NCBI GenBank assembly: GCA_009192285.1 | Contig: CM018607.1 | Location: 496,001 to 560,000 of the forward strand | Origin: Morchella semilibera | Lineage: Eukaryota; Ascomycota; Pezizomycetes; Pezizales; Morchellaceae | Length of the DNA stretch: 64,000 nt | Reading direction: 5' to 3' | Shown: positions 3,867 to 56,203 of the stretch, piece by piece | Layout of the letters: every line of letters starts with the position of its first letter | Numbering within the stretch: the first letter of the stretch is position 1 | Notes under the pieces: model-generated | The model's input: only the letters and a program-made list of their open reading frames with translations | What the model was told of the DNA's origin: nothing | The model's database searches: none | Position numbers and translations under genes: made by a program

Positions 3867-3867
3867 G

Positions 3868-19557: not shown

Positions 19558-20107
19558 ATGGGTATCTCGCTTACAGCTCTCTCCAGCAGCGACATAATCG
19601 CCATTGTCATTGGGGTCGTAAACATACTTGTCGGCGTATTTGGGACCATCCAGGTCTGGAGATGCTACAGGAGACGAAGAGCCTACTTTCGGGGAAGGGC
19701 CCATAAGAGACACAAGGTACGCTATAATAGACTCTAGCCTGTTCCTTGGACACCCAAGCTTCCGGAACCCCGCCTGGGAGACAGGAATATAAGCTTTGCC
19801 CGGCCAGCGTTCCTGTTCAGCGGTGCTAATCCATATATGTTGTGCTTGTGGCTAGGTATCAAGGAGAAGGCGCCGACGTAAACCACAAGCCACAGGGGAT
19901 GTGCCCCAGACAGCCCCACAGCCGCTCCTCGACGACGATAGGACACCGCACCGTTGCCGTCACCAGTTAGGGGATCCGGATACAGCATTCAATTGTTGTT
20001 GCGACCAGACAGACACCCCCCCAAGCACACACGACCCACCACCACCGCCATATCCCCCTATCCGCCCCCAAATACCGCCAGCAGCAAAACTGAAGCCCGG
20101 GGCGTAG
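19558..20107 (+). CDS. Small single-pass membrane protein, SD-TM family member 1 (136 aa)
   Basis: Exon 1 (19558-19716) encodes MGISLTALSSSDIIAIVIG, a membrane segment of about 22 residues (roughly 11-33), and then a strongly basic run (CYRRRRAYFRGRAHKRHK). A GTACGC donor in phase 0 and a TAG acceptor join it to exon 2 (19856-20107). Exon 2 starts VSRRRRRRKPQATGD and ends in a Pro-rich tail with PPPPPYPP and RPQIPPAAKLKPGA. A single helix followed by a basic flank predicts N-out/C-in topology, with the tail in the cytoplasm. The tail has PPPY, a WW-domain ligand type. Three further loci (38610-39262, 46558-46883, 55815-56203) share the Ser-Asp/membrane/basic plan and the phase-0 intron. No family name is known to me. 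The function is unknown. Confidence 0.65.
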
Positions 20108-22046
20108 CACGGTGCACGCTTGGTTGTGTGTCGATTCGAGGGCGACATTCGCCCGTAGCCCACCTTTTTTAGTTCTTTCTTAATTATATAGACATTGTAT
20201 CGCCATCTTTGTTGTAGCATTTTCCCCCCGGCCGGCCTTTACTGTCGATGTTAGTGTTGTGACTTGGTTCGACCTACTGGTCCCTCCTCTAGCTTCGGGG
20301 TGATTTCCTTTGTAATGTTAGATTTCTCTCACTGTCAATGTTAGTGTTGCAACCCCTAGTCTCTCCTCTTCAGGATGTATTTGATGCGACTATCAAGTGT
20401 CCTGGACCTAATTTACATAACCTTGCCCCGTTCCCACACAAACCTGGTCCTCTACCGTCTAAGCTATCTTGCTTTTAGCCAGAGTTGGACCCGGGTCTCC
20501 CATGCCACCTACAGTCCAGCTGAACCCGTGAGAAGCCTTACCCCAGTGTCATGATCTTACGGGACTTGCGAGCCGCCATACCCCGCCCCGGGGGTTGTCT
20601 GCATGTATGTAGGAGTAACAACATCGATATCTAACTGGATCATGTAAAATCACTCGGCCTAGCTGTGGAACAAACGATTTTTTGAGTAACAGATAGTGGG
20701 GGGGTATATGGAGTAGACTTCGTTGCTACCCAACATTAGGTACAGAGGATGTGTCTAACATGGGCATATAAGACAGCCACCACAATAGAATGGTTGACTG
20801 TGCTCGGAGGCAACACACGTTACAACAACCATGTTCTACGTACCCAGGGGGGTGGGGGTTAGATGGAGGCCGCCCCGTTCGGGTTTAGGGTTGCTGCGTT
20901 AGGCAACTTAGTCAGCAGGCGGACGACGAGTGATATCCATGATCCAGTAATAATAGTTAAGTATCTCTTGTACAACCTTGGACCAACTACTAGTACAGAA
21001 ACCCAAGCCCATGGCCATTTGATTGGCCAACAAGCCCGGTCTCCATACAGCAGTACACCCGTGCAGTATAACGGGCCTGGAAATGCAAGTCCCTTTCTAG
21101 CCCAGCTGTCCCGATTACATAAGCAAGCAACAGACGAGTGATCTGTCGTGAAGCACAGCCGCTTCATAGAACATTGCAACTGGGTTGGGCGATAAGGTCC
21201 TTTACGTATAACGCTACAGCGCTAAACACCGACCAGGGCCGGGCAGAACGGATATCGCGCCGCCCAACCAACCAACCAAGCCCCGGGGTGGGGGGTGGTT
21301 CAAAAGCTCCCTATGTAGCGCCCACCAGCGCTGGTGCCAACACCCGGGCCACCCCCTGTCTGTGCTGCCCAGGCCCGATTAAAACAAAAACCACGACCAC
21401 GACCCGGCCCCACGTGCGCTTCCGCCCCCACGGGGCGTTTGTAGGTAGCGTGGGGGGCCATGTCGGCCCAATGTCCGTTGAACAGGTAGGGGTGGTTCGC
21501 GCTTCGCCACATCACAGCGCGTTTTATTGGACAGCCCTGTGTGCGGCTGAGCGCAGCTGGGGGGGATATAAACCCCCTCCCCCCTCCCTCCCGTGGGATT
21601 ATGGGTTTTTTTCCGTCTTTGATTACAGCAGTGGATCTTTTGCACAGGAGGTGTGGCGTTAGCGCAGCTAGGCTCGGGGGTGGTGGAGGGGGGGGCGGGG
21701 TACGTACGGCGGGGATGGACTGGTCTCGTATAAGGGTGACGGTGGGCGAGTGCGTTGGGGGGGGGATCTACGGATGTGGGGTGTGTCGGGTGGGGGGGGG
21801 GTTGCTCATATCGACGTTGTGGCTGCAGGGGGGATAGGTTGCGGGTATTAGGCGGTAAGATGGGCGATGGGTTGGGGTATGAGCGAAGAAGGGGTATGGG
21901 GGGGGGATTGCTTATCGGTTTTGACGATGTGGGACGGGGATTGGGGGGGGGGGTAGGATTGGGGGGGGGTAGTTGCCGACCGGTGTGGTATTTCGGGTAG
22001 TGCGCTGGGGGTGCACCGGGGGTGCCCTGGAGGGAGGGGGGTGTTA
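20108..22046. other. Non-coding stretch with a direct repeat and a G-rich tract
   Basis: ACTGTCGATGTTAGTGTTG at about 20240 recurs as ACTGTCAATGTTAGTGTTG at about 20333. From 21670 to 21985 the plus strand is dominated by runs of 4-10 G. Open frames in both tracts are composition artefacts. Confidence 0.45.
21670..21985 (+). repeat. G-run tract with G-quadruplex potential
   Basis: More than ten runs of four or more G occur on the plus strand within about 315 bases, many separated by only 1-7 bases. This fulfils the usual G-quadruplex sequence pattern several times over. Confidence 0.75.
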
Positions 22047-22589
22047 TTAGAATACTACAGCGCCGACTGAGGCTACTACACCGGAGCCGAAGGCGGGTGG
22101 GGGGGGGGGTTTGCGATGCGCTACGTACAACGGAAGAGGAGGACGCCCCAACACCCTACACGGGGCAACCACAATCCAACAGCAGGACCCGGGCCTTGCT
22201 GTCGGGCTGCTCTCTGTCAACACGTCCACTTCGACCACTAGCTCCGTGTCCCGCGCAAACACTGCCCATTCCCTATTGCTAGCTAGATAGAGCCCTAGCC
22301 CTGCGGTGCTTATGTACACATGTAGACTAACTTTGTAGACCGACGTGGGGCGGACAGGGAACAGGTTGTGTTTTTCTGCCACTACCGCGCACCCGCTCGC
22401 CGGCCGGGCTTGGTACTCCGACGGCTGTAAAGTGTGCCGTGACAGGGCAAGGTGTACAAAATCAAACCGTGAAGAGCTGCCCGCCCCCCCCCCCCCGGGG
22501 ACCAGCTGAGTAGTAAGTGAGGCTGTAGAAACTGTCTTACCAGTCCGGGGATCACAGGCTATCACTCGCCTGCCATCACACAGCGTCAT
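22047..22589 (-). CDS. Possible hypothetical protein (up to 180 aa)
   Basis: The frame has an ATG start at 22589. A middle stretch looks protein-like, with alternating hydrophobic segments (SVYKVSLHVYISTAGLGLYL and AVFARDTELVVEVDVL). A strong GTAAGA donor follows RTG near residue 17 and a TACTACTCAG-type acceptor lies about 35 bases later, so the first part may contain a small intron. The C-terminal third is proline-rich and sits over G-rich DNA, so the true end may be earlier. I recognise no domain. Confidence 0.3.
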   Translation of the reverse strand: MTLCDGRRVIACDPRTGKTVSTASLTTQLVPGGGGAGSSSRFDFVHLALSRHTLQPSEYQARPASGCAVVAEKHNLFPVRPTSVYKVSLHVYISTAGLGLYLASNREWAVFARDTELVVEVDVLTESSPTARPGSCCWIVVAPCRVLGRPPLPLYVAHRKPPPPPAFGSGVVASVGAVVF

Positions 22590-23735
22590 GAGATATCACT
22601 CGTGCAGGAACACCGAAAAAAGCTGCTTTGTGCAACCATTGTGTAAATACCACCACCAGAGGACACAGTATGTTCCATTATTATCTATTAGTGTAGAAGA
22701 CATGTACATAGCCATGTAATCAGTCAACCAACCGCCCAGCCCCCCTACACCGAGATTTCAAAAGATATGGAGGCCTAGGGGTTATAATATGCTGCTGGTG
22801 ACGTTGAGATGCGCTGGATGGTTATGATACATGTTCCGTACGGCTCTCCTACGGGCTCATTGGTTCCTTTATGTTTAATCTAGGACTCAATACAAGACAG
22901 ACATACCATGCAGGCTTCATATAACCGTCCATAACTCCCATGCGATCAAGAACCCCGAGTGATATCCCATGACCCACCCACCCCACACCCCCGACCGCCG
23001 CGCCAAACGGGCCGCACCAGAGCTGGCTATGCACGGGCCAGACGCCAATCAATCAGGGGCTGCGTGGTTGTTCCCGCCTCGCAGAAGAGTAAGAGATGTC
23101 ACTCCCAGCAGTATAGTATAGTAGCATCTCGAGCAGCAGCGGCAGCACCGCGGTGGTGGCATCACTGTAGCGTTCTACTAGGGCCTAGGCTGGGAGGGAA
23201 GGGAGGGCTGTCTGGGCCTATAGTAGTGGGATCCGGGTCGATCCGATCCCTGAAGAGAGGCTTTGGGCGGGGTGGGGGGGGGGGTCGGCTTCCGTCAGGA
23301 CTAAGGCCCAATGCGAGTGTAGAGGAGTCTTGATTGGGCATGCTTCCGGGCTCTTGAAGCCAGGGCATAGGGCAGCAACGCATCAATAACTTTGTAAGCT
23401 TAAGGCTTCAGGTTTGCAATACTAGGCGGCCCTACGATGCCGTACTTGTAACATGTCAATAGTACCACCATACTATAGCCACAGCAAATACTCCCCCAAT
23501 GTTTTCGCAGCCGCCTCCAATTGTGCCTTGTTATGACCGAGCAGATGCCCTGGTGGATGCCACCACGCGGGGCCGAGGGGTGGAGGTGCCACTGTGGCAC
23601 CCCTGTGTTGGCCATGGTGATATAACGTCCGATACATACGAGATTTATCTTTTGGGCCCAAGTCATGTAGATGTATATAGTGGTAATGATCGCTCCGTAG
23701 GGTTATCTATAACATCCTTCCCTCAGTCGTACCTA
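22590..23735. other. Non-coding stretch
   Basis: No gene is supported. A G-run near 23275 and several short frames on both strands are present. Confidence 0.35.
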
Positions 23736-24500
23736 CAGTACCAAAAAACGGGTAGGGATAGCGACCGTAGTGCTACCGGAGTGATACTTATTTAGGTGGA
23801 GTACGGTAGTCCGATGAATGCCGCATCATTTCTGCTTTCTTGACAAAATAAATTGCGAGCACTATAGTATTGAGGGCGGACTGCGCTTTGCGCGACATAC
23901 CGTATTTTTCAGGAATGTGGCTGTGATATGGTGGTGCTATTTCTTTTGGCGGAAGGCGCATTGGAAAAAATAGGGTATGGCTGGGGTATCGCTCCTGCAT
24001 TGTGGCAGAATTAATTATGCTGAGAATACTGTAGCAATACCGCTCCACTACCGCATTGTGTGGGGCGCGCACTCTGTACAAGAGGGTAACTGTACGGTGT
24101 GCACATGGTTGTACACCTAAAATGATTTTTGGCAGAATACGGCACGGCTACAGGCAAAACAAGAGTGCGTACTCGATCGAGTATGGTCGCGCTACCCGAT
24201 TTGTCAAAAAGATATTTAGCGCTCCATACAGTATGGCTACTGTATTCCTTACATTGCGTATTGGAAGATCACTCGTTCTACTATGGTAGTGGTACCGTTT
24301 TTTGAGGTTAAGAAGAGCCTTTTGAATATCGTACCACTACCTGATCACTTTAATTTTGGTGGGAATTCCGTATCCCTACTAGATTGCTACTTTATTGTAT
24401 TTACTGGTAGTTTGTTTGTCACGGTCGCATTTTTGTGGTTGCTTTTAATATTTCCGAAAATCATATTTTTTTGTTATTATTATTATTATTAAATCTATTA
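23736..24500. repeat. Left subterminal repeat region of the 8.8-kb element
   Basis: Many short variants of TAGTGCTACC, GGTGGTGCTA, AGCAATACCGC, CCACTACCGC and GTAGTGGTACCG occur in both orientations. Matching motifs occupy the last 400 bases of the element at the right. The frame at 24283-24492 ending in a Tyr run is not supported as a gene. Confidence 0.65.
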
Positions 24501-25736
24501 CTACAAATACATTTATAGTTGCAGTTCTAAGCAGAAAACAAGATGCGGAAGGGAAGTGGAGGGTTGCGGTAATGCGCGCGCGAATGTGTGCTATCTAAAT
24601 CTGTTAGCGAGTGTGGTAAGGAAGGAAACTGGAGACTTACATGTACATAAAGAGAGACTACAGTGCTGGTATTGTACAGTATATTATCGGTATCGTATGT
24701 AGTATTGTAAAGTACATGTAGATCGCTATTGCAACTGAGAAAGATCTGTTAGCGAAAGCGGCAAAAAAAGACCACAAGAGACTCACATGATTTTACTATA
24801 TCGTGGCGTGAGTGGATGTATCTGTTGCGTGTATGATTTATTAGTGAGATAGAAGAACGAAACGAATATATGATGGGCTAGACTTACACGAGCTGTGCGT
24901 TTTCTCTTGTGTGGTTGGGAATACCTGCGAGGGTTAGCAAACTTGTTGGTTAGGCATGAGATGTGTGGATACGTGTACTTGCAAGAACCTGGATCTCTTT
25001 GATACGAACATGGAACCTATGAACACGGTTAATTAGCAATTGGAGTACATGTACATGATAGAGTGGAGTAATTCGTGGGGATATGTGGCACCCTATTGTA
25101 GTGTTCGTGGGCATGTTTTGGAAGAGGAGCATACAATGGTACTGTAGTGTGCGAGAGGATTAAATAGGTGGGAAGGTGGGACTGTTATTTTTAGGTCATG
25201 GTCTTGGCAGCGCACAAATCCAATAGAACGCGGATTAAGGACTGCGTTCGCTTCGAGCCCGCAGGCCCGAAACGAAACGAAACATTTCTCGGCGCATGAA
25301 ATAAACGTTTCTCGGCGCTACTTTTCTTCCATGCTATCTGCCTGTATTATACAGAATTTTTAAAGATACAAATAAAAATCTAGGACGCCAATATTGTAAT
25401 GAACTAAAAAAAAAACACTACTGTTATGAATACAAGTTTGTGTCTGTCGCGCTATTGTTGAAATTCATCATGTTTTGTCATTGGAACACCGACAACTCCG
25501 TGCCCTGTGAAAAAAAAAGGTATATGTGCAATGTATGTAAAAAAAAAAAGATATGTGCAGTATTGTATGTAAAAGAAAAATAGGAGTATGTGCATGTATG
25601 TAAAAAAAAAATACAGTATTGTAGGGATATGTGATGTACCTGTATGTAAAAGAAAAATACGGTATTGTATTGTAGGGTTATGTGAAGGAAACATTATTGT
25701 ATAAGTGATTGAAAGAGGAAGGTTGCATGCCTACAT
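24501..25736. other. Element interior without genes
   Basis: Imperfect direct repeats containing AAATCTGTTAGCGA (24599 and 24746) and TACATGTA palindromes (24638, 24713, 25046) lie here. TTTCTCGGCG occurs twice near 25285-25315 and again near the right end at 32203. Confidence 0.5.
25505..25690 (+). repeat. Tandem repeat of about 40 bases, TGTATGTAAAAGAAAAATA
   Basis: About four to five imperfect units combine a poly-A tract with TATGTGCAGTATTGTATGTA or a variant of it. The array lies just downstream of the accessory gene's stop and may form part of its 3' region. Confidence 0.75.
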
Positions 25737-27474
25737 TTATTCCTCCTCTAGTAATTGAGTACCGTTAATTTGCGAAAGTGGCGACGAAGGTTGATCCTGA
25801 GTTCTAGCGCCTGCGTCGTCTTCCGATTCTGGATCTTCGTCTTCCGGATCGGAAATGTCCAACAAAATCGGTGCAAGGGGGGCAGGAGTAGAGGGTGCGG
25901 TTGATGCAGAGGTAGATGCGGCCTGTCTGTCCCTATTCATTCGTCTCCTCTGGGCGGTTGGGGCAGCTACCTCTTCCTCGGGAGCATCATCATCATCTAT
26001 TTCGGCATCTTCTTCGAAAATGGTAAATGTGGGGTCGAGTGCGTCGATATTTGTTGGCCTATCTCGCTTGCTCGCCCTGACCTTTGTCTGTGGTTTCTGA
26101 GGAAGTAGAACGAGAATGTCGGTTGTATAATCATGGAATGACTTATGACGCCCGATGAGACGCATTCGCTCTCTACCATCTGCTTTTGATAGCTTAGCGG
26201 GCCAATGACGGTATGTGTGACTGTATCTAAAATTTTGTATAATGTTAGACTCAGGTTAAATTCGGTTATATGGATATTGGGGTTTCTACACGTACATAAG
26301 ACTATATGTCCAAATAGTTTTATATAGCTGGAATGCTTTCGGGTTGTCAAGGACCTTAGCCCAGTTTACTATAGCCGTGGTTGTCCCCATGAGACGATAC
26401 AGCAGCTGATATTGAAACAGCTTACCATATGCTTCACGGAGGTCGTTGGGGCGAAGACGTGCTAGCCCCACTTGTTCATCCTCGAGCTCACTCTGGAGCA
26501 GATCCACCTCGTTTGCGTAGTTGAAAAACCAATTCTTGCGCCACTCTTGTACACGACTATATGCTTTCTTATATGCATTAGAGAAACGATCTGCTCGTCT
26601 ACCTAAAGCGGAATCGATGAACCCGGGAATGGCAGCATCAGTCCAGCTAAGGAAACGTGCGAATTCCAGTCGACATGTAAATATGAGGGCATTCCATGTT
26701 TGTCCCCCGTCTTCGAATTCGCCTCTGAGATGTGTGCTGTCGTATGAACGTTTGTTACGTCGATTATATATTGCGGTATTCAATATGTCTTGGACCTCCT
26801 CCGGAGAGAGACTTGTCGGGACCTATAGACACTAGTACCTCTAGTGGTGACAAAATTGTGTTGTATGTGATGGGGGCTCATACCTTAACCTGTAACTCTA
26901 TAATATGTTGCTCTTCATCCTCATCTCCCTCCTCTTCTATCACTAATGGTTGGCGATCTCTATGATCTGAACGTAACAAAGAGGCAAATTCTACCCCATT
27001 GCCAAATTGTTCGTTAAAAACCTCATCCCCTGCAGTTTGAGCTCGGTTTGGCCGTGGCAGCTGACTCTCACGACGGTCTATTGGCCTTGGAACCCGACGC
27101 TCTTGTGCCCGCCGCTCACGCTCTCTTGAAGATATAACAGTGTCGCGGTCTCTTGAGTGATCCGCTGAAACAAGAGGCTCTCTCCCGGTCAGTCGTTCTA
27201 TAGAGTGCGACCGCTCTCGCCTATTATGTTGTGAGGCTGATGCAGCGGCCACGCGTGATTGAGACTCTTGAGACCGACCTATAGTCGCCTGTGAAAAATC
27301 GAACGAATTCGGAGAGTCATTAGAATAAATTGGGATATTTGTGGTACGGCGAGGAGTAGGAGTTTCGGGGGAATAAGCGATGCTTGCCTGTGTAGTGTTA
27401 CGATTAGCTCTGTTTGAGGGGGTTAGCCCAGCACGTCTATTGGGAGTTGCCCTAGGTAAATGAGATTGGCTCAT
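25737..27474 (-). CDS. Transposon accessory protein (535 aa, three exons)
   Basis: The exons are 27474-26884, 26822-26296 and 26226-25737; introns of 61 and 69 bases have GTATGA and GTACGT donors and AG acceptors in matching phases. The joined frame is 1,608 bases without a stop. Residues 1-190 (MSQSHLPRATPNRRAG onward) are Ser/Arg/Thr-rich and probably disordered. Residues about 198-400 form a compact helical domain with many aromatic residues (EWRKNWFFNYANEVDLL, LFQYQLLYRLMGTTTAIVNW). The C-terminal third is acidic and Pro/Ser-rich, with ILLDISDPEDEDPESEDD, which fits a SUMO-interacting motif. The gene converges away from the transposase within one element. By position it is a second transposon protein comparable to the DNA-binding subunit of CACTA elements, but I recognise no homologous domain, so that role is inference. 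Confidence 0.7.
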
Positions 27475-28389: not shown

Positions 28390-31300
28390 ATGAAGCGACG
28401 TGGGCTCCCAATAATTCCGGCGCAAATTAAACGCGTCAACCGGCATGTAGTCTCATCATGTGTGTATTGTCATCTATGTTTTATGCGCATATATTTCAAT
28501 TTATATCATTGACTCTTCATAGTTGAGAACAGTGCCTATCAAGGCTCAGCCGTATCATTCAATTGGGAAGAGGCCCCTGAAGTTGAACAAATGGACGAGG
28601 AAACGGTGATCGTTGAAGATGATATCGCACCATTCGAGGAAAGAGACAACGATATACGTCTCCGTCAACGGGAAATCAACTTGCTGGGTGTTGAATATGG
28701 AGATACTGACATGGTGGAAGGTGAAGAGGAAATATTGGAGGGCGGCGCGGCGGGCCCGGCGGTTTGTGGGAGGAACGAAACTATCGGCGGTGAACCTTTA
28801 GACGAATACGAGTTGGAGGAAGGTGGGGCGCCAGATGAGGCTGAAATGGGCATGGACCTACTAGTTGGCGACGAAGAATTACAAGACATATCGTTACCAA
28901 CAAATCTATCTACAATAACCGAGAATGGAGAAAGGGATATGGATGGATGTTCGGAAGAGTTCGTTGCAGATGGGCCATGCGATAAAAATACAGCTATTGA
29001 CGACTTCCACTTGGCGCTCATGATATTTGTCACTGCGGCGGATCTCTCAACCTCTATGTACGAAGCTCTGACCGAGGTGTTGGCATTGGCGTCGACGGAG
29101 AGTGTAAAAAGTCTCCCGAAAAGTCTGAAGACACTCAGAGAAAGATGCCGTCAAACGTTCCCTATCTCACCAATAAAAGCACGCCCCGTTGAGATCAACC
29201 TTGCAGTAGCACCTCCCAAATCATCCACCCCCCGCATGGCATATTATTTTGATGTCTCCCATTACTGCAAAATTTGGCTGAGCAACCCACGTATCATGTC
29301 ACGGCTGCACACGGGTTTTGGTAGGATTGTGGAGTCACCAACTGAGTTGTGGCATGGTGATGCTTGGATGGAGAGTGTACGATCCACATCAGGCGAATTT
29401 GCCCGCATACGAGATGGTACCACGGATGGAGTTGTGTTATTCCCATCAGACTGTGTTGAATTCATTGATGCGCAGGGCACGCCCGCAATGGGGCGAATTA
29501 AAGCTATCGGCCTCGATCTCCGGAATAAACAACACGAGGGAGGCGTAGTGTCTGCTATTATAAATCGTTTAGTACCAATTGGCGACCTACCAGATCACAT
29601 CAAAGAATGTATACATATAACGGCTCGAGACGATCGACTGGTAGGAAAAGCAAAGGAAGTTGATAAGATAATACATAAAACATTTCCTTCTGGACTATCA
29701 GAACTTGTATTATTCGAATCACGTGAGGTAATATCGTGCTCGGCGATATTATCTAGAATTTGGGTTTACTTCACTGACTACGAATCACCCGAATCACTCA
29801 AGGACAGCCTACTGCCATACCCACCAAAATATTATGTCCGTCACATAGTATATCAAGGACCTACTATTGGATTAGAGCAGTTTGGGCAGCCTAGAGCTCG
29901 GGTACGATGTGTTGCTAAACGACATAGAGTTATCGCCGAGACAGAACTTATCCAAATATCACGGGCCACTGTTTTGGCTAAATTGGTATCTGGCGGAGGT
30001 GCGCTCGATATTCACACCCAAAAAATCGTCTCCGTCCCATTCTCGGTATTTCTCGATGGGTTCGGATTATATCGAAATGCATACAAATCTCTGAAGGGAA
30101 TGTATGTAACACCGGCTGGTCTGGATGTTGATAGTCGGTCCCATCTATCAAACATGTTCGTGTTAATGATTGGACCGTTTGGTGCCACAGAATTATCCAT
30201 GGCAAATTGTTTGGCTGAAGATAGTCGGAAGATGGGCACATGTAATGGGGAACAGTTGACCCTGTTTACGGGCGAAAGAGTGACCGTGATCTCTTTCCCG
30301 TTGGTTTTCACTGGAGACCTACCACAGCAGAACATGAACTCTGGTAATAAGGCACATAACGCAGTATACGGATGTCGCTCTTGTTTCGTGGCAGACACTG
30401 GAAGAGGTGATCTGTTTCTAGATATTCATTCCACGGGGAGATACTGGGGCCCAACCAAGAGGTTGCTTGAATATACACGGTCACTGAAGAGTAAAAGTGC
30501 TCAGTCTGCGGCACAGCAGAAATATGGGCTAACAGCCGAAGGACCATACTTCGCCCAATGCTACACTATGCTAGATCCCCAGCGATCGAACCCCAATGAT
30601 CCTCTACACGCCGAGCTACGCCTATGCAAGTACTACGCAGAGGTGCTGATAGATGGAATCCTGTCGCCGGCGGGTATAATTGCATACCAAAAAGAATGGA
30701 GTGGCGTGAATGTACCGTTTAAATGGGGTCAACCACAGAATCCTGTTACTCATAAAGGGTCAATGGTATTCAGCGAACATGGTCGAATGGCAGTTATGAA
30801 CCCATTCGTGTTGATGCGGATGTTTTTAGATCAAGAAGGCGACAGTGGCGGCGGCGAAAACAAAAGAAAAGAGTTTCTCAAAGCAGGCGCCGAAGCGCGG
30901 ATGAAAGCTTCATTTAATGATGGAGAGGGTTTGTGTCCAGAGCGAAAAGTGCGCCTCCAGCTACTGCGTACATCTTTCGTTCTCGCTAAGATGGTGCACT
31001 TGGCTCTCAAGCGCTCTCTTAATCAAAAAGAAAGATATGACTTTGCAATAACAACAAAAGAGGTTAGTAAACCCCCTCCCACTAAATAATCAAATATTAA
31101 ATAGGGCAGATGCGCATTATGTTACGGAAGTTTTTTGCAGGGAGCGCTACGTCTAAAAGCGCAGGACACCAGAGGTACGCGAATGTGCCGAATATTCATA
31201 TAGGATTGCATTACCGCCAAGACATAGAAAATTTCGCGACAGTGTACAATGCTACCACGATGATGGGAGAACAGAAGCACAAAATATTCAAACAGCACGC

Positions 31301-32051
31301 CCAACACACCAACTCCAAAGAAAATGATCTTCAACTTCTAAGATCCGTTAATACGTCACAGACTATAAGGTTCATGCTTGACGGCACGTTTGATAGGTCC
31401 AATCCGGCAATAAGTCAACAACTACGCCGTGTCGTCACACTCTGTCCGAAGGTGAAAATGCGATATCTAGGACAAAGAGAGAATCTGGGTGCAGAGGAAC
31501 TAGTAGAAAAACCAGCAGAACATTCCGGTTTCAACCTTTCTGGCACCCTACTACGTTCAGCGAAAACGGGATGCGCCATACCTTTCAGTTCAGTCTCCCC
31601 AAAAGAAAGAGAAAGCGACCTCGAGCAAATACGTATTCAATATAAAGAGGAAGAAGGGGTTGCAATCGTGAGACAGATGCGGGCAAGAGTTCACTACTGG
31701 GGATATCTCACAGGCGAAGCAACCAGAAAGACCAGGGAATACGACGGGCAGCACATATATCACATAAAACCAGGGGGGTTTGTGAGACTAAGAGAAAACC
31801 CTTTCTCCTTCTACTTTGTGAAGAGGATCCTTACGGTTTCAGTGGGTACATATGTGAAGATCTACTTTGTACTTGATGTATTGAAGCGAGACGTCAAAAT
31901 GGAGACAGAAGCCGCCCCATACCCTGTTTTTACAATAAGTAACGACTCCTTGACTGTAAGTATACGCAGGATCGACCCCGTAGTGTTCCATTTCGTCACA
32001 AGATGTCCTGGTTCCTGGTGGTTTAATCCTTATGTTCCACATTTCATGTAA
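28390..32051 (+). CDS. Transposase-like protein of the 8.8-kb element (about 1,183 aa)
   Basis: My model has exons 28390-28459, 28523-31062 and 31110-32051, in phase throughout; a shorter alternative starts at ATG 28591 (1,137 aa). The first exon is the least certain. An acidic N-terminal region (many Glu/Asp) leads to the catalytic core, where FLDGFGLYRN places a conserved Asp at residue 489 of the short form and YGCRSCF supplies a C-x-x-C pair at 595-598. This block (FLDGFGLYRNAYKSLKGMY and the following PAGL) is a pattern I know from fungal CACTA/Plavaka-like transposase proteins. The distal exon ends with a region containing YHIKPGGFVRL. I cannot place the remaining catalytic acids with confidence. 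AATAAA follows the stop. Complete frames and splice sites suggest the gene could be expressed. Confidence 0.72.
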
Positions 32052-35566: not shown

Positions 35567-37501
35567 GACGACTCCACCACTCACCCGGACACCCCCCTCA
35601 ACAGGACAGTTTGCGATTGGGCAGAATTCAAGTTGCGATTCTATAGTACTTTTAGAGTTGCCTACGCTTTCTACTACTAGCAGTCTGCTTTCCTTCATCT
35701 CTTTTCTTTTTCTGTTGTGCAAGGTATTCTCCACTACATAATCTAGCTTTTGTGAAAACCTTTCGCTTATCTACCTTTGCTCCCCTTATCCTGCGCAACT
35801 CACCCTGTGTTTTTTCTAAAGAATATTCAATTGCTGCAAGCTCTGTTCTTTGTTTCTGAATAAGAAGCTGTTGGCGTTCTAGGAGATTTAGGAGAAAATC
35901 TTTGTCAAAAATAGCCACCTCTTGTGGGCCCGGGTCATTAAGAAGTCTGCAAGCCCGGTTGTAATCATCATCTAAAGGAACAGGATACTCGGGTGGAGGT
36001 GAAAATAACTTTGGTGGTGGATCTGGAATGCGACGTCTTGCTGCTTCAGGATTCCAAGGCCATGCTCCTGCTTGTTCAAAGGCTCGGATAGCAAGTGAGC
36101 TAGTCCACTCTGCTTGTTCGGTTTCGGATCGGGATTCATGCTGTGGGATATCAAATGTAGACCTGCGTGCAGGGTCAAGAAAAGACATAAAATTATGCTT
36201 TCCGATACCAGTTCTTCCATGCCGTGAATGTAAATCAACCTGTTTGGAATAATGGTGTTGGTAATGCCGGAATACACCAACATCTAATGGTTGCAATAGG
36301 TGTGTAGCGTGTGACGGTAAACAGAGTACGATAATCTTATTCTGCCAGCAGAACTCAATTGTATCGAATGTCATATGGGCTTGGAGTCCATCAACCAGTA
36401 GAAGACGCCAACGTCCATTTGCACTATAAATATTTTGGTTAGTTATAAATTATACAAGGATTGAGAAATAACTACATACCGTCTAGAGGTTTCTAGATTA
36501 AAGATCTCTTTTATCCATGCACTATATAGATCGCTATCAATCCAACCAGATTCCGAATGTCCATACATATAGCCGTTCATAATAGACCAGCCATAATTAT
36601 GGTTCTTTCCCTTATAAATTATAAGTGGCCGTCTAGTTACCCATCCATCCGCAGCTATTGCTTCAAGAACAGTGATGTTTTCTTTATTTCCGTCTTCGAC
36701 TACTTCAGCCAATTCTGGATAGCCACGTCTAACTATCACTTTAGAGTTCCTCGCTTCACCCATCCTAAATCCTTTCTCATCCAAATTATAGAAATTTTGT
36801 CCCTCAATTTCATACTCTTCAAAGGCTTCTTTTAGAATATTGAAATAGTCGGAATAAAACTCCTTATCATTATTTGCAGCTGCCCGACCAGATTGTAATC
36901 GCTTGCTGTAAACAGTTTGGTATTGTTGACGCCATTTTTGGAAGTGTCGATATAACCAGTTTTTGCCTAAACATGCGTTCTGGTTCTCTGTCTTTCGTTT
37001 GTAGATATTATTTGCCCAATCTAGAAATATCTCCTCGGTAACTGAAAAATTATGGGAAGCTTGACGATCCGCAATCTCAAATAAATATCTCTGTTCCGCC
37101 TCTATTCCTCATTAGTAACTTCCTACTAATTACTTTCTTTATGGTTTCTTACCTGATAGTCGCTGTCTCCCCTGTGCGTCAGCTACTTTATCTGCTCCAT
37201 TTTTGAGTTTATCGGCTAAGGCTGATTTTGAGACAAGGTCAAAACAGGCCGCTGTTTTTCGGATTGATGAATAATCGCTATGTGTTTTGTATACTCGGGC
37301 AGCTTCAGCAAGTTGTTGAGTTCTCCTAATCGTAGTGTTGCTAATTACCATTGTGATTGCGGTTGCTTGACTGCAAACGAGATGATCCATTCTCACAACT
37401 ATAACCCGGTTGATCAACAGCAATGTCTCATATCCATAGATCAACCAATCACAATCAACTGTCCTGTTGAGGGGGGTGTCCGGGTGAGTGGTGGAGTCGT
37501 C
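35567..37501 (-). mobile_element. Intact Fot1/pogo-like transposon (1,935 bp)
   Basis: The ends are a perfect 45-bp inverted repeat beginning GACGACTCCACCACTCACCC (35567-35611 and 37457-37501), flanked by TA at 35565-35566 and 37502-37503, the target duplication of this group. Size, TIR length and TA duplication match Fot1 of Fusarium (about 1.9 kb with 44-bp TIRs). Motifs such as TTGCGATTGG occur just inside the ends. The single gene fills most of the element. Perfect TIRs and an open gene suggest recent activity. Confidence 0.9.
35652..37351 (-). CDS. Fot1-like pogo-family transposase (530 aa, three exons)
   Basis: The exons are 37351-37153, 37101-36480 and 36423-35652, joined by introns of 51 and 56 bases with GTAAGA and GTATGT donors in matching phase; the joined frame is 1,593 bases. 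The N-terminus has a psq-type helix-turn-helix (VYKTHSDYSSIRKTAACFDL), then a CENP-B-type DNA-binding region (LSEAEQRYLFEIADRQ onward, with NWLYRHFQK). The DDE_1 core shows NLDEKGF (Asp174), LLLVDGLQAH (Asp285) and HATHLLQPLDVGVF (Asp321). The last two Asp are separated by 35 residues, the DD35D signature of Fot1/pogo enzymes. The C-terminus is basic and coiled-coil-like (ERQQLLIQKQRTELAAIEY). Such enzymes cut and paste elements into TA sites in the nucleus. No frame damage is visible. Confidence 0.88.
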
Positions 37502-38609: not shown

Positions 38610-39262
38610 TCACCAATTGGCCTTTTCGAGTGTCCAGACTCCCCCGCTCACTATCCTGCCATCGTTTATCACTACTATATACGAGCCGTGTCCATTGAGC
38701 TTCATCTTCGCCGGCGGCGGCATCTGGGGCCGCGCGGGGTTCTGGGCGTCTGCCGGGTCTTGGGCCGCATCGATTTCGGGTTTAATAGCTAGGCATTCTT
38801 CGTCGGGCACTTTCTAAAGGCCAATCAGTAAGTTATATCAAACCAGGCATTTGGGGGAGGTTTAATTTAACCTACGCTGCTGGTTTTACCCAATCTCCAT
38901 TCCCGTGTGTAAATGATGCCGGAGACGGTCAAAAGTATCCCCAATGCGCCAATCCATACCTGCAAGATACCGATAATATCGGAAGTACTGAGCAGCGGAG
39001 GATCCATAGGAAGTTGGTCTAGAAAGCCCGGGGTAGGGTGTGTACACGCGTAAAAACCGCCCGTAAAATCTGGGGTTCTGAAGAAAACCTGTTTACCTTC
39101 GACTATCATGTAGAATTGCGGGTTCCAAGGGTATGATGTCCATATATACCATTTGGATGAAGCATTGAAGAGAGATACATCATATAGAGAGGTTTTGTTG
39201 TTAGACATGTTGTCCGGCCTTTGTTGACGATAGAACTGTTCCTGCGTCATACCCCTGTCCAT
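38610..39262 (-). CDS. Membrane protein, SD-TM family member 2 (196 aa)
   Basis: Exon 1 (39262-38876) encodes MDRGMTQEQFYRQQ and a region of about 90 residues with many aromatics (KWYIWTSYPWNPQFYMIVEG). Then come LLSTSDIIGILQVW, a membrane segment (about residues 95-117) and a basic flank (YTREWRLGK). A GTAGGT donor in phase 0 joins a 62-base intron to exon 2 (38813-38610). Exon 2 encodes an acidic stretch, then NPARPQMPPPAKMKLNG, close to RPQIPPAAKLKPG in family member 1, and ends GGVWTLEKANW. The long N-terminal region is absent from the other three members. By the positive-inside rule the tail is cytoplasmic. A TATA-like run lies 20-30 bases upstream of the ATG. The start could also be Met 39250. 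The function is unknown. Confidence 0.62.
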
Positions 39263-40013: not shown

Positions 40014-40015
40014 TA

Positions 40016-40866: not shown

Positions 40867-40980
40867 TAATTGATAAGATGTGGGGTTGACGGACCTTATT
40901 GGTCCTGTAGCTGCGGCTGCATGCCAAGGCCTACTCTGGACGGACCCAAGCCCGGGCGTCCCCATCCCCTGGCTTGTATA

Positions 40981-46557: not shown

Positions 46558-46883
46558 ATGTGCTCATTTGTTCTGAGTAGCAGCGACATTCTTGGCATTA
46601 TACAGATATGCATCAGTGTGATTGGGATTATTGTGGGTCTTGGATACGGCAAAAGAAGACCTGTAGGTCCTTTACTCTAAAAAGATTCTATCAGGGGGTA
46701 GCTGACCTTTTTGGGAGCTAGATATTGGATGAAGAAAGCAGAGTCGGTCTAGAGACTGTGGAAAAGCAGCATGCAGTATCTCCGCGACTGAAGCTAAGGG
46801 AGGACCAGCTCTCATTCGAGTATTACAGTCGCTTCACCACCTCTGATTTACCTCCACTACACCCAAAACCCAGCAACAGCTAA
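46558..46883 (+). CDS. Small membrane protein, SD-TM family member 3 (88 aa)
   Basis: Exon 1 (46558-46662) encodes MCSFVLSSSDILGIIQ, a membrane segment (about residues 10-30) and a short basic flank (GKRRP). A GTAGGT donor in phase 0 begins a 59-base intron ending GAGCTAG. Exon 2 (46722-46883) encodes an acidic start (ILDEESRVGLETVEK), a central charged stretch (LKLREDQLSFEYYSRF) and a proline-rich end (DLPPLHPKPSNS). The layout is the same as in the other members, although outside the SSSDI motif the sequence has little in common with them. The helix and basic flank predict a cytoplasmic tail. The function is unknown. Confidence 0.58.
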
Positions 46884-50429: not shown

Positions 50430-50632
50430 TCTTGGCGACAGTCTTGGTGCGAAAATCCCGCCAAGAGCTCAAAATTTGAAAAAAAGAGATTACCACCTTC
50501 TGAGTCTAAATTTTTAGTTCTTGGCGACCGGTTTTTGGTGGATAGTCCGCCAAGAGCTCAAAATTTGAGCTCAAAACTTGAAAATTTGGGTGTTGCCAAA
50601 ATGCTCTATTGGCCAAATCGTATAATGAATGC
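50430..50632 (+). repeat. Dispersed repeat with internal duplication (CCAAGAGCTCAAAATTTGA)
   Basis: TTCTTGGCGAC, followed later by CGCCAAGAGCTCAAAATTTG, occurs twice in tandem here (near 50431 and 50519). CTTCTGAGTCTAAATTTTTA followed by GTTCTTGGCGA lies between the two. Related sequence in the opposite orientation occurs at 63851-63915 and, more diverged, near 14970. Confidence 0.7.
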
Positions 50633-50918
50633 AACATCCTTGCCCTATGTCCCGGAGGCACCAGACACTGGCGAAATCTCTCTCATGCATAAATGTCATG
50701 TGATTCATGTTTTTGCTAGCTACAGAGATCTAGAATGTCCGGGTAAGTAGTTCGCCGCATTACTACAGTCTCTAGAATACTTAGAAATTCCATAAACTTC
50801 GCACATTGCTGCTTTGTTTCAGTCAATCATTTCCTTCATAGGCCACACTAATGCATGAGAGACATTTCGCCAGTGTCTGGTGCCTCCGGGACATAAGTAC
50901 ATGTACTTACTATATGTA

Positions 50919-51041
50919 CTCGCAAATTCATAACGTTTCTGAACACAACCGCTATTACATGCCATACAAAAATGTAGTCTTGGCGGGTTTTTTATGTGTA
51001 TGCAATATTAGTCATGTTCAAAAACGCTACGAGATTGCGAG
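50919..51041 (+). mobile_element. MITE family G copy 1 (123 bp)
   Basis: CTCGCAAATTCATAACGTTT at the left pairs imperfectly with CTCGCAATCTCGTAGCGTTT read inward from the right, and TA flanks both ends. A near-identical copy lies at 60555-60667, and a third, degraded relative overlaps about 51137-51222. Confidence 0.82.
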
Positions 51042-51313
51042 TAGATAGTGTCTTCTTGCCCTTTTCATAAAGTGATGTTGTCCCTTGCTTACATGCATAT
51101 GTAACGTTACACCCCTAACCCTCGCGTATACTTGTGTATTGCGTGCCATATAAAAAGCAGCCTTGGCTTTTTCTGTGTATGTAATACCTGTTGTGTCCAG
51201 AAACGCTATGAGATTACAGAAGGACATGCATGCCTCAGAACCAATAAAATAGCCGTATTATGTTGTGTCTGTAACTCAAAAACACTCAGTCTACCTTCAT
51301 GTAATATGCCCTA

Positions 51314-51449
51314 CCGCATTAATTGGTCTCGACGACCAGTCACACAAGACGTTGGAATTCCCCTATTTGATTATTTGTCTTGAATACGCCCTCATACCCG
51401 CTGAAAAAGGCAACTTCGACGTCTTGTGTGACCGGCCGTCGAGACGAAC
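51314..51449 (+). mobile_element. MITE family B copy 2 (136 bp)
   Basis: The element starts CCGCATTAATTGGTCTCGAC and ends with a near reverse complement (GGCCGTCGAGACGAAC), with TA at 51312-51313 and 51450-51451. It is the inverted partner of 40016-40150. Confidence 0.82.
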
Positions 51450-51451
51450 TA

Positions 51452-52753
51452 ACAACATAGGACCCGCATCCCGCTAATGCAGGTACACGGGTTGGCTCAC
51501 CCCATGCTCTCGCAGAGCACGTGATCCCTCCTAACCCTGGCTTAAGCCTAGCTTAAACGAAAAGGGCGCCGGTAGAATAAAAATCACGTAATAGTAGTTA
51601 AGTGCGACGTGGCGTTAACATATATTAGGGGGGAACTTGCACGCACATATTCCCTCACCCCCTCCCGCCACCTTCTCCTATCCCCCTCCCCAGATAATAA
51701 CTTTATAGGACAACCTCCGTTGCTCTTGATTCATCGACCTCTCACCTTTGTGCTTCGAGACGTGAGCAAGTGATCCCCTACTCCGTCATTGTGGAGGAAC
51801 AGTGGGATTTAAGGGGGTTGGCCATGTTTACCATGATCCCCTTTTGTTCACTCAGATTGCTAACTGGTCCCTTTTCAAAGCGCAGTGATCAGACTGGACA
51901 TATCGCTAGAGAGATACTCGCGTTAATTGAGTCCTGAGAAATTTTGTGAGCCCGCTGCTACCATGAATTCTCAGGACATAATCAATACGTGATCATGATA
52001 GGGAAACAAATCTGAGTTTTGGGCGAGAATAGAACAGGTAATCCCTTGTAGATAATTTTCTCCACTTTAGGCTAGGCCTATTATCGATAATTTGGTGAAA
52101 ACATGCTTCTTAAGGACTTTTTTAGTTACTTTACGAACATACTATCATTGCCTTTCTTCGAATAAGCATGAAGTTGGCGTAAAAAGAGACATACAGCGAC
52201 AAATAATAAGTAATAGAACGCCCTAAAAGTGCAAACACCAGATTTTGGTGCCGTTTTACCAAAACAGGCATCACTGCGTTCCATCACTTATAACCTGCCG
52301 TTGTACCACTCCCAATGCAAAGGAGAGTAAATATCTCCACCAAGATGCCCCTAAAAGATAATTCCTAATAATTTACCCGTCCCCATTGCGATATCGCGGT
52401 CGTACAAGATCAGGTTTTCTATGGCTAGAGCTTCTTGCTCGTTATGTGGTAGAGATGGGGGTATGTACGAAAGACCTCGACCTTTGATTGATTGCTGAAC
52501 TCTGATGTAGTGTGGCATATCCCAGTCCTTTAATAGTGGTAAGACTCTTGACGTACCACCCGGTAGCAGGTCCTTGGTGAAACCTCTAATAGCACAAAAA
52601 CCGAAAAAATTACACCAAGAACATTCCTTACTACTAGATCACGAAATGACTAATAGCCGGGCCTGTAGGTGAAGCGCGACATAGAGTCAAAGTTGATTAC
52701 CTTGATCCATAAATGAAACATAATCACCAATGAACGGTTTCAAAAGCATATCA
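51452..52753. other. Non-coding stretch
   Basis: I see no supported gene or element. Confidence 0.35.
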
Positions 52754-53139
52754 TGCGCGCAGAAATCCGCTCCCGCGGCCTGTCAACCAACTTTCATGTT
52801 GGAGTTGAGTCATAGTCCAACTTTTGAGTGATAGTCCAACTTTCATATGAGAGTTGAGTGGTAGTCGGCGCGCCAAATAATGAGCTAGTCTAACAGAGAT
52901 GCTGGGATACCTTTCCATAGCCTGGACATATGCTACCCCCAAGTCACCCGCCAACAACGCCGCAGCCCCGGAATGCAAGATATCCCACTTGCCATGGGCA
53001 TCTAGCTCTGTGGCAATAGCTGATGTGGCTTGTGGGTCTCTGTCGCCGGTAGAGTTGGTGAGCTGTCCAGGTATTTTGGGCAAATATATGTCCGTCGGCG
53101 AGCTAGCGGGAGCCGTTTCTTTTGGAGGTGAGCTTTATT
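52754..53139 (-). CDS. Possible terminal exon of unknown gene
   Basis: From an AG acceptor near 53140 the minus strand stays open for about 128 codons with protein-like composition: SPPKETAPASSPTDIYLPKI, then DAHGKWDILHSGAAALLAGD and ERYPSISVRLAHYLARRLP, to a stop at 52751. No upstream exon is convincing. A tandem AGTCCAACTTT repeat underlies the 3' part (52790-52866), so the genuine exon may end earlier. Confidence 0.3.
52790..52866. repeat. Short tandem repeat, AGTCCAACTTTCAT-type unit
   Basis: About three imperfect units combine CCAACTTTCATGTTGGAGTT, GTCCAACTTTTGAGTGATA and GTCCAACTTTCATATGAGAG. Confidence 0.6.
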
Positions 53140-54401
53140 GCAAATCTTGTGAAGAACAAAATCATGCTCAACGCCCACTCAAGAGGTTTTAATGAATAAC
53201 CGACAGAAAGTACTCGACAGAAAATTTAGGCAGTTATTTCCCCCGCTATGTCGAAATTTTGAAGTGCGGCGCGTTACTACTGGGTACACCGGGAGCTATG
53301 GCGCTCTTGATACCGGGGTTGTTCCATATCGCCTCAATAAGAGATATACAGCTGGATATAAGATACATAGGTAGTCAATAGCTCAAGGACTTGCTGCTCA
53401 TAGATACCTGTATCACAGCTTATAAGGATACAGAAGCGAAAGGGGAAAAGCCATTGCAATTTGAGATATAGTTTTTATTTGGTGGGTGTCTATTGGAGAA
53501 TTTCCGAATTTCGGGAATGAACTAGGGCCATTCATAAAACACCTGCTGTCTTCATGTGTTTGTCATAGGAACGGCCCATCGGTGAATGGTTTAGCAAAAA
53601 CTACGGCTCTGAAGTATGTAGAACCCTTCACTCTTTGTTTTAGTTTGCTTATACAATGCTTACGGCTCATAGATACGTTTTTTTGGGCCGCCCACCACTT
53701 GTATAGGATTTTTGGTCCTATGTTAATAAACATACGGACCATTTGTGAACGGCCCGAGTCTATTCATAAAATCTTCAGCTTACCCAATAACCCTAAAAGG
53801 TCAACGGTTTCAGCTTTTAAGATTTAAACTAAGGTCACAACGAGCAGAGTTATGATACCGAGTTACAATTGTACAGCCCCTTGAGTATCAAGCTGATGCC
53901 GCCTGCCCTAGTGGAGAGTGCTCCGTACCATGCGCCTTTGCTCCTGCGGGGTTGATCTAGAACCGTTGTTCTATTAGCTTTTTCGTAACTCATTCTAGTG
54001 CGTGACGCTCTGGGGCTGGAGGCGGCCGAAAGGTGCTTATTGCCATACCTGGATAGCTAGGTCTCCGTCTACTTGGTAGCCAAAAATATATGGTTAGGGA
54101 ACACCTATGGTGCGAGAAGTGATGGGGGGGAAGTCTGTCAACCAAAAAACATCTAGTGAACGGGAGCTTTAGAACAGCTACGCAATCTATGAATTAGGGA
54201 TCTCGTGTGGCGAGCTGTGGCTTCCGCGTGAGATTTAGCGTGGGAGCAGGTTGACGGGCTTCCCCCCATCACCGCAACACCGACTTCTGATGATCAATTT
54301 CCAATCAGGTAATTGTTTAATCATTTACGCCAGTAAGTTGCCAAGAATGGCCTTTTTGCGCTCCTATAGAGTACAGCGATTGAGTGCCCAATGCGGGCGT
54401 A
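53140..54401. other. Non-coding stretch
   Basis: Open frames at 53192-53827 begin without ATG or lack motifs. I support no gene. Confidence 0.35.
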
Positions 54402-54611
54402 TCCCTTAAACCGTCAGGCCGAACTCAAATAATAGGATCCTAAAGGAATTTGGAAATCGTGATGTGTAGAACGCAGAATTTGGGTGTGTGCTGTTGCAAT
54501 ATATAATCCATCACAGCATCAAATCCGTTCCCTGTAGAGTAGGCGTTCCAGATATCACGATTTCCATATTGCGTTTCCTATTGTTTGAATTTGGCCTGAC
54601 GGTTTAAGGGA
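54402..54611. mobile_element. MITE family E (210 bp)
   Basis: TCCCTTAAACCGTCAGGCCG at the left pairs with TCCCTTAAACCGTCAGGCCA read inward from the right. Shared internal blocks (GGAAATCGTGAT) lie further inside each arm, and TA flanks both ends (54400-54401, 54612-54613). Confidence 0.85.
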
Positions 54612-54767
54612 TACCATCCTAATCGGTAACCTATCCATCCCAAATAGGCAGCGATGGGTGCGATGGTCTGGTAGTAGCTCCGCCAGCAAAAGATGAAACT
54701 AATCTGGCTGGTAAATGGTAGAGAGGAAGCGGAACCATTGATTAACCGAGAGGAAAGTAAATTGTAG

Positions 54768-55041
54768 TGTGGCTGAGGAAGGTTATGAGCAGTTGAAGTT
54801 GACCCTCGAAATATCTACAATACCTGTTACAGATGACGAAGGAAAAACTGTAACAGACAGGATACCATGCGGGCTTAGCACCAAGCATTGGCCATCGCGC
54901 GCACTAGATGAAATTCTACCCATAGCTGGGCATACGGTTGAAACCGCTTCTAAATCTTATACTTTAAAGTCTGGGAATAGCCTACCCCTTACGGAGCCGG
55001 AAAGTACTAATCAATTAATCGTTCAATCAGTCCAGAATTAG
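54768..55041 (+). CDS. Possible terminal exon of unknown gene (90 codons)
   Basis: Following an AG acceptor (AAATTGTAG) the frame reads AEEGYEQLKLTLEISTIPVT, continues acidic and ends TNQLIVQSVQN. Residue use is typical of a real protein, and there is no antisense frame. The frame lacks ATG. A possible upstream exon (PPAKDETNLAG, about 54680-54712) is separated from older sequence by MITE E, so the gene may have been cut off from its 5' part. I recognise no domain. Confidence 0.35.
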
Positions 55042-55814
55042 CAACTACATGTAACTCCCTAAACCTTTTACCTCCACCCCTTATAATCAACTGATACAAT
55101 TGACGATAAGAAAACGAAAACAACGATAATCAATGAAACTTTACACAATGCCGACACCGATAAGCCCCCTAATAGAAATGAACAGTTCAACTCCACCAGT
55201 GAGATATTCTAGTTATGTCACCCTTTTCTTCACACGGATACACCCAAACGAGGAGCTCGAAATCACGCAGAATTCAGAGCACTACCGGTAAACACCAAGC
55301 GCAATATACAAGTTCAGAGCGTCTTGGGCCTAGTTGTGGGGTTCGCCCGCCTGCCTGATCAAAGGATTCAAACTTTTGAGGGGAATATGAGAGGGTAAAT
55401 GCATTGACACAACTGTCGCATGGCCCAAAGAGAATCAACAAGTTGTTGGGGCTCCGCAAAACCCATCGGTTGTTTTGGGCCCGGTAATCCCAATCCTGAC
55501 AACTAGGAGACATGTAGAAAATCTAAGTTTCGTTTGCCGGTGGAGCTCAATTCCTCGGGAGGTGATGTTAATGGTTTATTCCCATGACTGGCTACCCTAA
55601 TAATCCACAGCGAAACATCTATAGCGAATGAAATATTGAAAAACATCCTTCATCTAGCTGTACTGGAACTGGAGAGAACTAGCGAAGTAAGCCTATGGTC
55701 AATGATGAACGTCTGGGGCTATATATTAATCCACCGTCAGGATGATAGGATAGGAGTTACATGCATCATGCGGTAATAACTGACCATTAGAGAAAACTAT
55801 TTACTAACTGAATA
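55042..55814. other. Non-coding stretch
   Basis: I support no gene. One TACATGTA is at 55046. Confidence 0.35.
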
Positions 55815-56203
55815 TCAAGGGTTGTGGCCTAGAGAAGGGGTGGAGGAGGAGGTAAGCGATCCTTGGCCACCGATTCCCGACACTAGAGCGGTTCCATCCG
55901 TGTCCTCCACGGTTTCTGGTGCCGCGTTGGCTCCTTCGAATTCCTCATCGACTGACTACATACTCATAAAACACCCCGGGGTTAGTAACATGAACAGATC
56001 AGATGAACCCAAAAATATGTAGCCAGAGAAGCTCTTCGACCTGCACCCACTTGCACTAAAGAATAGAGGGGTACGCATACTCTCCGCGGAGTCCGCCCCC
56101 GCAAAGTTATGATTCCAAGAACCCCGACTATAACTCCGAAGAAGCTCACAATAATACCGAAAAGGGCAAATACGTCGCTTCTGTTGAGAAGTGATATACC
56201 CAT
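55815..56203 (-). CDS. Small membrane protein, SD-TM family member 4 (87 aa)
   Basis: Exon 1 (56203-56081) starts MGISLLNRSDVFALFGIIV, almost the same first five residues as member 1. It has one membrane segment (about residues 10-33) and a basic flank (LRGRTPRR). A GTATGC donor in phase 0 begins a 125-base intron ending TATGTAG. Exon 2 (55955-55815) encodes an acidic tail (SVDEEFEGANAAPETVEDTD) ending STPSLGHNP. The fit of phase, splice sites and stop gives 87 aa. The predicted orientation is N-out with a cytoplasmic acidic tail. A weak possible relative lies upstream on the same strand at 56548-56763. The function is unknown. Confidence 0.6.

Follow-up and report, generated by a model that had tools for sequence, protein, structure and literature searches.

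Very short N-termini, one helix and a basic cytosolic flank are common to the yeast Pmp1/Pmp2 proteolipids and the FXYD pump regulators, and clustered, lineage-specific orphan families occur in transposon-rich compartments of fungal genomes. Among short single-pass proteins with L/PPxY motifs, PMC5578492 names Rcr1/Rcr2, Commissureless and PRRG4, and it describes the binding of Rcr1 to Rsp5 through cytoplasmic PY motifs. The genes analyzed here, five predicted paralogs (M1-M5) from Morchella semilibera, of which four lie in a 64,000-nucleotide stretch of DNA that was analyzed as a whole (the window), resemble these proteins in their short length, one predicted membrane helix and putative cytosolic tail (PMC5578492). 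M1 also carries a PPPY in its Pro-rich tail, but PPxY is found in only one of the five tails and the family has no Pfam match above cut-off. With fungal orphan families these genes share few copies, confinement to one region, strong divergence and the absence of a homolog in the present searches, whereas their constrained membrane helix and common intron place and phase set them apart. For a two-exon family spotted by eye in raw sequence, outside the reach of Pfam at its cut-offs, support could be gained independently of transcripts, from a profile match out of sample, silent-site excess and splice signals.

Pfam includes an Rcr model and Pmp1/FXYD-type models. Searches with all five spliced proteins at E ≤ 10 returned nothing above cut-off, in keeping with the initial annotation, which had offered no name or function for the family. 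The weak names obtained (YtpI, tetraspanin, PARM, DUF2371, NKAIN and A13L) each fell below cut-off, with the NKAIN match for M5 far sub-threshold (13.1 bits versus a cut-off of 25.9). The family follows the same general plan as Pmp1/Pmp2 and FXYD, namely a tiny N-terminus, one helix and a basic cytosolic flank, and by this analogy its members might be regulators that act by docking their helix onto a pump, either a P-type ATPase or a comparable transporter; the tails of 46-83 residues, the intron after the flank and the lack of any such Pfam match at E ≤ 10 in the five proteins, save the sub-threshold NKAIN match, make such a role quite unlikely. A PDB profile search yielded eight rows (E 0.69-0.82, over 12-16 residues) that we took as chance. 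In the protein collection, four full-length proteins searched as an alignment gave no match at E ≤ 10 among 2916 candidates and the consensus exon joined to the M4 tail gave none among nine, in searches that use few words and could miss unannotated small genes of relatives. A control query encoded on the contig of the family, an inositol-pentakisphosphate 2-kinase, retrieved a protein of Morchella sextelata with 96% identity, and the collection therefore includes morel proteins. Queries of the open-licence literature made without the motif itself, covering the available part of PMC13208314, found no description of the family.

Gene plan and splice signals

All four loci in the window follow one plan in their DNA and translations, as had been proposed: a short N-terminus, an [ST]SD or RSD motif, a helix, a basic flank, a phase-0 GT..AG intron and a second exon running to the stop codon. 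The helix comprises about 20 uncharged residues, with best 19-residue Kyte-Doolittle means of 2.15-2.79 across M1-M4. On the plus strand, M1 consists of a membrane exon with MGISLTALSSSD, helix and basic flank (19558-19716), delimited by its reading frame and with a profile score of 3.4e-19, a phase-0 intron (19717-19855; GTACGC...GGCTAG, with a CTAAT branch-like site) and an Arg- and Pro-rich tail of 83 aa (19856-20107) containing the single PPPY and RPQIPPAAKLK. M2, on the minus strand, is formed by exon 1 (38876-39007; proposed start MDPPLLSTSD), a phase-0 intron (38814-38875; GTAGGT...CCTTTAG, CTGAT) and a 67-aa tail (38610-38813) with RPQMPPPAKMK. Its start is probably MDPPLL at 39007, rather than the 39262 first annotated, because the Asp then becomes residue 10, matching M3, M4 and M5. 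M3 (plus strand) presents exon 1 with MCSFVLSSSD, helix and YGKRRP (46558-46662), a phase-0 intron (46663-46721; GTAGGT...GAGCTAG, CTGAC) and a 53-aa tail (46722-46883). In M4 (minus strand), exon 1 (56081-56203) encodes MGISLLNRSD, a helix with six small residues spaced 3-4 apart and a basic flank, and is followed by a phase-0 intron (55956-56080; GTATGC...TATGTAG, CTAAC) and an acidic tail of 46 aa with net charge -8 (55815-55955). M5, about 21 kb to the right of the window, has its first exon at C5:581591-581701 and a phase-0 intron as in M1-M4.

The donor fits GTRNGY in all five genes (M1-M5), and all five introns contain CTRAY starting 15-30 bases before the intron end; the chance per gene is about 7% for the donor fit (22 phase-0 sites) and about 11% for CTRAY (37 positions). 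Under an acceptor rule set once the genes were known (CTRAY followed by CAG, TAG or AAG, in an intron of 45-200 bases), the modelled acceptor is the longest-tail choice in every gene, and comparison with dinucleotide shuffles under the same rule gave P values of 0.012-0.078 per gene (Fisher P = 2.8e-4). These sequence signals establish a predicted phase-0 intron common to the family and uphold the claim that its phase and position are shared across members.

Common ancestry and conservation of the membrane exon

A profile of the M1-M4 membrane exons, searched against the window and 200 kb of flank, found M5 at E = 3.6e-14, with the next match at E 0.54 and the best reversed-sequence match at 0.63. 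The profile that detected M5 did not contain it, making this an out-of-sample test that we regard as decisive; it adds to the support for the common plan and, in the comparison that the initial annotation had proposed, brings in more members than random hydrophobic frames do. The proposed search of the rest of the genome was also performed. A consensus query, built from the family members themselves, produced exactly five matches in 56.8 Mb, corresponding to M1-M5, which fall inside a 66-kb interval of a single contig (C5:515558-581701), revealing a clustered family instead of the dispersed one first described. Two scrambled queries against the whole genome gave 0 and 0 matches, a weak control, and since the consensus is derived from its own matches, the independent evidence is the M5 profile match. 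A family of at least five intact, predicted two-exon genes is thus well supported. A sixth place, M6 (C5:773884-773985), weakly matching M1 exon 1 (E 0.28) and devoid of an in-frame ATG, is probably a diverged, dead copy. A frame at C5:624040 with LNRSD followed by an Arg-containing helix (E 0.13-0.54) was not accepted as a member.

Over the 21-24 helix codons compared, pS exceeded pN in all ten pairs, demonstrating that the predicted helix exon has been under purifying selection. M4 and M5 are the closest pair, with 68% identity over 37 residues of exon 1, and their pS reaches 0.70 for exon 1 and 0.78 for the helix. At the DNA level, a single gene-to-gene match exists among members, spanning the first 80 bases of M4/M5 exon 1 (72.5%) from the ATG onward, and this restriction of similarity to a coding exon counts in favor of a family. 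Against shuffles preserving the composition of each segment, helix-exon pairs scored better at P ≤ 0.012 in 10/10 cases, whereas tail pairs did so in 1/10. The predicted tails are hence very weakly conserved, and their sole common motif, RPQ[IM]PPxAK[LM]K, is found in M1 and M2 (P = 0.002).

The initial annotation had attributed this pattern, a kept membrane exon and far more diverged tails, to a module of fixed helix and varied tail. The conserved helix exon and less conserved tails stand, but a special varied or swapped tail exon is not needed, because silent sites are near saturation and a weakly constrained tail would already be unrecognizable through ordinary drift. Tail swapping, considered for M1 and M2, which share the tail motif although the M2 helix scores best with M3, was rejected: M1, M2 and M3 are all of the SSSD/STSD type, and motif loss in M3 explains the mismatch.

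These results demonstrate the common ancestry of the predicted membrane exons and bear on whether the genes could be a product of chance, that is, unrelated hydrophobic frames chosen by eye with introns fitted to order. Short helices hold little information, the loci and splice sites were picked by the earlier reader, and the first scan rule, set after seeing M1-M4, recovered 4/5 members and missed M5. The detection of M5 by a profile lacking it, the success of every helix-exon pair against shuffles and the silent-site excess in every pair already strongly disfavor such a coincidence, which is barely credible.

Topology and proposed role

In all five members, the N-side carries a charge of -2 to 0 and the exon-1 flank one of +2 to +10. 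According to the positive-inside rule, a basic flank marks the cytosolic side, so the acidic or neutral N-side and basic flank would place the tail inside. Exon 1 might instead encode a signal peptide that is cleaved off, leaving the tail as a secreted, fast-evolving peptide, as the N-terminal position, small size, transposon-rich surroundings and tail variability would allow; the usual signal peptide, however, has the reverse arrangement of charge, and the conserved part is a long hydrophobic stretch, something signal peptides do not usually show, rendering a secreted product rather improbable. In M4, all six small residues lie on a single heptad face, and the same holds for M5 (P = 0.0001 for either gene when the phase is left free, the two not being independent of each other); M1 also presents such a face (P = 0.017), and in M2, M3 and M6 it is not significant (P = 0.13, 0.20 and 0.38). 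N-myristoylation at an initial MG was discarded as a family feature, since M1, M4 and M5 begin with MG and M2 and M3 do not.

From this anatomy we infer a mechanism in which the protein would insert as an uncleaved reverse signal-anchor, so that roughly the first 10 residues would face the lumen or the outside, and the basic flank and the tail of 46-83 residues would be cytosolic. The helix would pair with itself or a partner helix via its small residues, and the tail would act as a weakly constrained docking segment for cytosolic partners, perhaps differing between members. A reverse anchor, helix association and a docking tail lead us to propose that these proteins are small membrane-anchored adaptors or regulators of other membrane proteins. 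We assign a probability of about 0.5 to this reading of M1-M5 as old single-pass proteins, with M6 as a dead copy; M1, with PPPY in its Pro-rich tail, would come closest among them to ubiquitin-ligase adaptors of the yeast Rcr1 type. That the genes make up a locus for membrane recognition or signalling in Morchella, in which helices with small residues at 3-4 spacing pair mutually and differing tails are combined in mixed oligomers, as allorecognition or defence might need, appears very doubtful. Morels are a cultivated food fungus, and if expressed, these genes would provide a compact paralog set for asking how a membrane helix can remain constant as the attached tail drifts.

Transposon-rich surroundings

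Transposon-type frames lie around the family genes, in a contig stretch rich in transposons. Such surroundings, together with the absence of an in-frame ATG in M6 and the dissimilar tails, could indicate that an ancient family is for the most part degenerating within a transposon-rich island, where the helix exons survive as recognizable remnants. The ATG, donor, branch-like site, acceptor and tail frame are nevertheless kept in 5/5 genes despite near-saturated silent sites, and decay on this scale is unlikely. In a test for transposon-borne copies, comparison of 4 kb on either side of each of M1-M6 against 264 kb, retaining matches of at least 40 bases with E ≤ 1e-3, identified no flanking sequence placed alike around them. 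The matches between members were M4/M5 exon 1 and a single repeat, roughly 100 bases long (80.8%). This repeat occurs upstream of M3, at a distance of 3.5 kb, and downstream of M5, 1.9 kb from the centre of that gene, and further copies are present elsewhere.

Membership of the family and its extent

The profile built from exon 1 (the membrane exon) of the four two-exon genes in the window, M1-M4, recovered a fifth member, M5, in the right flank at C5:581701-581579 (E = 3.6e-14), against E = 0.54 for the next match and 0.63 for the best match in reversed sequence. The profile search proposed in the initial annotation thus extended the family. It was a fair test compared with a first scan of 264 kb for frames combining a short N-terminus, a hydrophobic residue following S-D or S-x-D, and an uncharged helix: that rule, set after the four loci had been seen, matched M1-M4 and nothing more (none in reversed sequence), and missed M5.

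Across the genome (56.76 Mb, 23 contigs), M5 as query returned M4 (68% over 37 residues) and M4 returned M5; M2 and M3 returned only themselves, and M1 a weak sixth place. A consensus query recovered M1-M5 at E 7.4e-7 to 4.9e-4, as expected of a consensus built from them; the informative part is that no further genome frame joined them at E <= 10. The sixth place escaped this query, and other diverged copies may therefore have been overlooked. Two scrambled consensus versions yielded no candidates, a weak control because the search's first look goes by shared words. M1-M5 are a real family, found nowhere else as far as can be tested; the family proposed initially stands, but it is clustered rather than dispersed.

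The sixth place (M6), on the same contig at C5:773881-773997 (+), encodes SSISTGDIIATALGCINIAIATMSAVIQWWDYRSRIHIA, followed by GTGAGT at phase 0. Its match to M1 reaches 35% (E 0.28 and 0.15), and the five-member profile run on 20 kb placed it at E 0.011 (10.4 bits; next 0.14). A query blended from M1 and M6 returned these two only, a recovery expected by construction. M6 has no in-frame ATG past the last stop and is therefore probably a dead copy; its membership of the family is likely, not certain. Separately, a frame at C5:623873-624040 (-) ends KLNRSDMVSRIIGAVAIFVAFIKL, an M4/M5-like motif with an E of only 0.13-0.54.

Gene models and constraint on the two exons

Exon translations were obtained for M1 (window 19558-19716 and 19856-20107, +), M2 (39007-38876 and 38813-38610, -), M3 (46558-46662 and 46722-46883, +) and M4 (56203-56081 and 55955-55815, -). 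In M5 the intron is phase 0 and 120 bases long, with GTATGT as its donor and CTAAT as its branch-like site, and the tail has 61 residues. The common intron phase noted at the four loci is phase 0 in each and likewise in M5; all five donors match GTRNGY, and every intron contains CTRAY beginning 15-30 bases upstream of its end. Unspliced, the frames stop 2-32 codons past exon 1. Under a single splicing rule with the acceptor left free, the chance of tails this long in shuffled downstream sequence was 0.037 (M1), 0.012 (M2), 0.053 (M3), 0.078 (M4) and 0.039 (M5); two of the five genes do not individually fall below 0.05, and the combined p is 2.8e-4. For M2, the start at 39262 initially annotated probably gives way to 39007: the former frame is open, though it adds 85 residues absent from every other member, and with the latter the Asp is residue 10, its position in M3, M4 and M5 too (residue 12 in M1).

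Over 24 aligned helix codons (21 in pairs with M1), silent change exceeded replacement change in all ten pairs of M1-M5 (pS 0.56-0.93, pN 0.14-0.54). M4/M5 gave pS 0.78 and pN 0.14, with 10 of the 18 codons for the same amino acid silently different, and pS 0.70 and pN 0.27 over the 41 codons of exon 1. The only gene-to-gene DNA match spans 80 bases of M4/M5 exon 1, from the ATG on; M3 and M5 each have a copy of one dispersed repeat, some 100 bases long, nearby but at unequal distances. Against segment-wise shuffles, all ten helix-exon pairs were distinguished (p <= 0.012), whereas only one of ten tail pairs was clear (M1/M2, p = 0.002; the other nine, p 0.09-0.90), its members having RPQ[IM]PPxAK[LM]K in common within Pro-rich sequence. 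Judged from these comparisons, the helix of M1-M5 is constrained and the tail is drifting. The conservation contrast recognized initially therefore holds, but the module of kept helix and varied tail built upon it is not needed: with silent sites near saturation, a weakly constrained tail would be unrecognisable anyway. Tail swapping or diversifying selection is a possible reading of the same sequences.

Predicted topology and helix packing

In M1-M5 the helix is uncharged, with a net charge of -2 to 0 on its N-side and +2 to +10 on its flank. By the positive-inside rule, the basic flank side is cytosolic, and these charges predict an uncleaved reverse signal-anchor with the tail in the cytosol. 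The tails look disordered, as 58-77% of their residues are P, S, T, D, E, G, Q, N, K or R. Read after the fact, small or polar residues fall at Asp+3, +6, +10, +13 and +17 in M2-M5 (also +20 in M2, M4 and M5), and at Asp+3, +7, +10, +14 and +17 in M1 and M6. Scoring Gly, Ala and Ser only, with phase left free, yielded a strong small-residue face in M4 and in M5 (p = 0.0001 for either, mutually non-independent), a fair one in M1 (0.017), and no significant one in M2 (0.13), M3 (0.20) or M6 (0.38), a pattern that favours, without proving, packing against another helix. Topology, helix face and tail make-up together would suit a putative membrane-anchored adaptor or regulator. A likeness to Rcr1, which according to PMC5578492 binds Rsp5 through PY motifs, is confined to PPPY in the tail of M1, one member of five, and is not a family-wide trait.

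Genomic surroundings of the cluster

The cluster sits in a transposon-rich stretch: DDE_1 remnants lie inside the window, which spans C5:496001-560000, and on its right side are polymerase frames of Ty3 and LINE type as well as DUF6589. Farther away the genes are of ordinary kinds: inositol kinase, beta-galactosidase, carboxypeptidase and DUF92. Some 61 kb left of the window, the product of a conserved gene shares 96% identity with a protein of Morchella sextelata, followed by matches at 91, 87 and 83% and, as the next named, Tuber at 69%. This one protein makes Morchella the probable genus of the source. No NLR-type or incompatibility domain was found among the 39 distinct frames scanned, a selection of the larger uninterrupted frames around the cluster; the frame at L007:4974-6614 gave sub-threshold matches to DUF7580 and kinase.

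Two copies of a 586-base repeat, at C5:573073-573658 and C5:578367-578952 and 100% identical, flank Ty3-type polymerase frames; this has the look of an LTR element that inserted recently, some 2.3 kb away from M5. Within the window, two adjoining frames at 35652-37108 (-) each encode about half a DDE_1 transposase domain, an interrupted transposon, and adjoining long frames of 858 and 316 aa at 28513-32051 (+), possibly a transposon, gave no Pfam match at E <= 0.01. The interval 3234-3986 (-), within a GC-rich stretch, encodes an F-box (PF00646, E 4.3e-6) followed by ankyrin repeats (PF12796, E 8.2e-19), and a short tandem repeat at 10917-11294 has one frame that reads EWREWEEWREWEEW, while its opposite strand gives HSSHSLHSSHSL.
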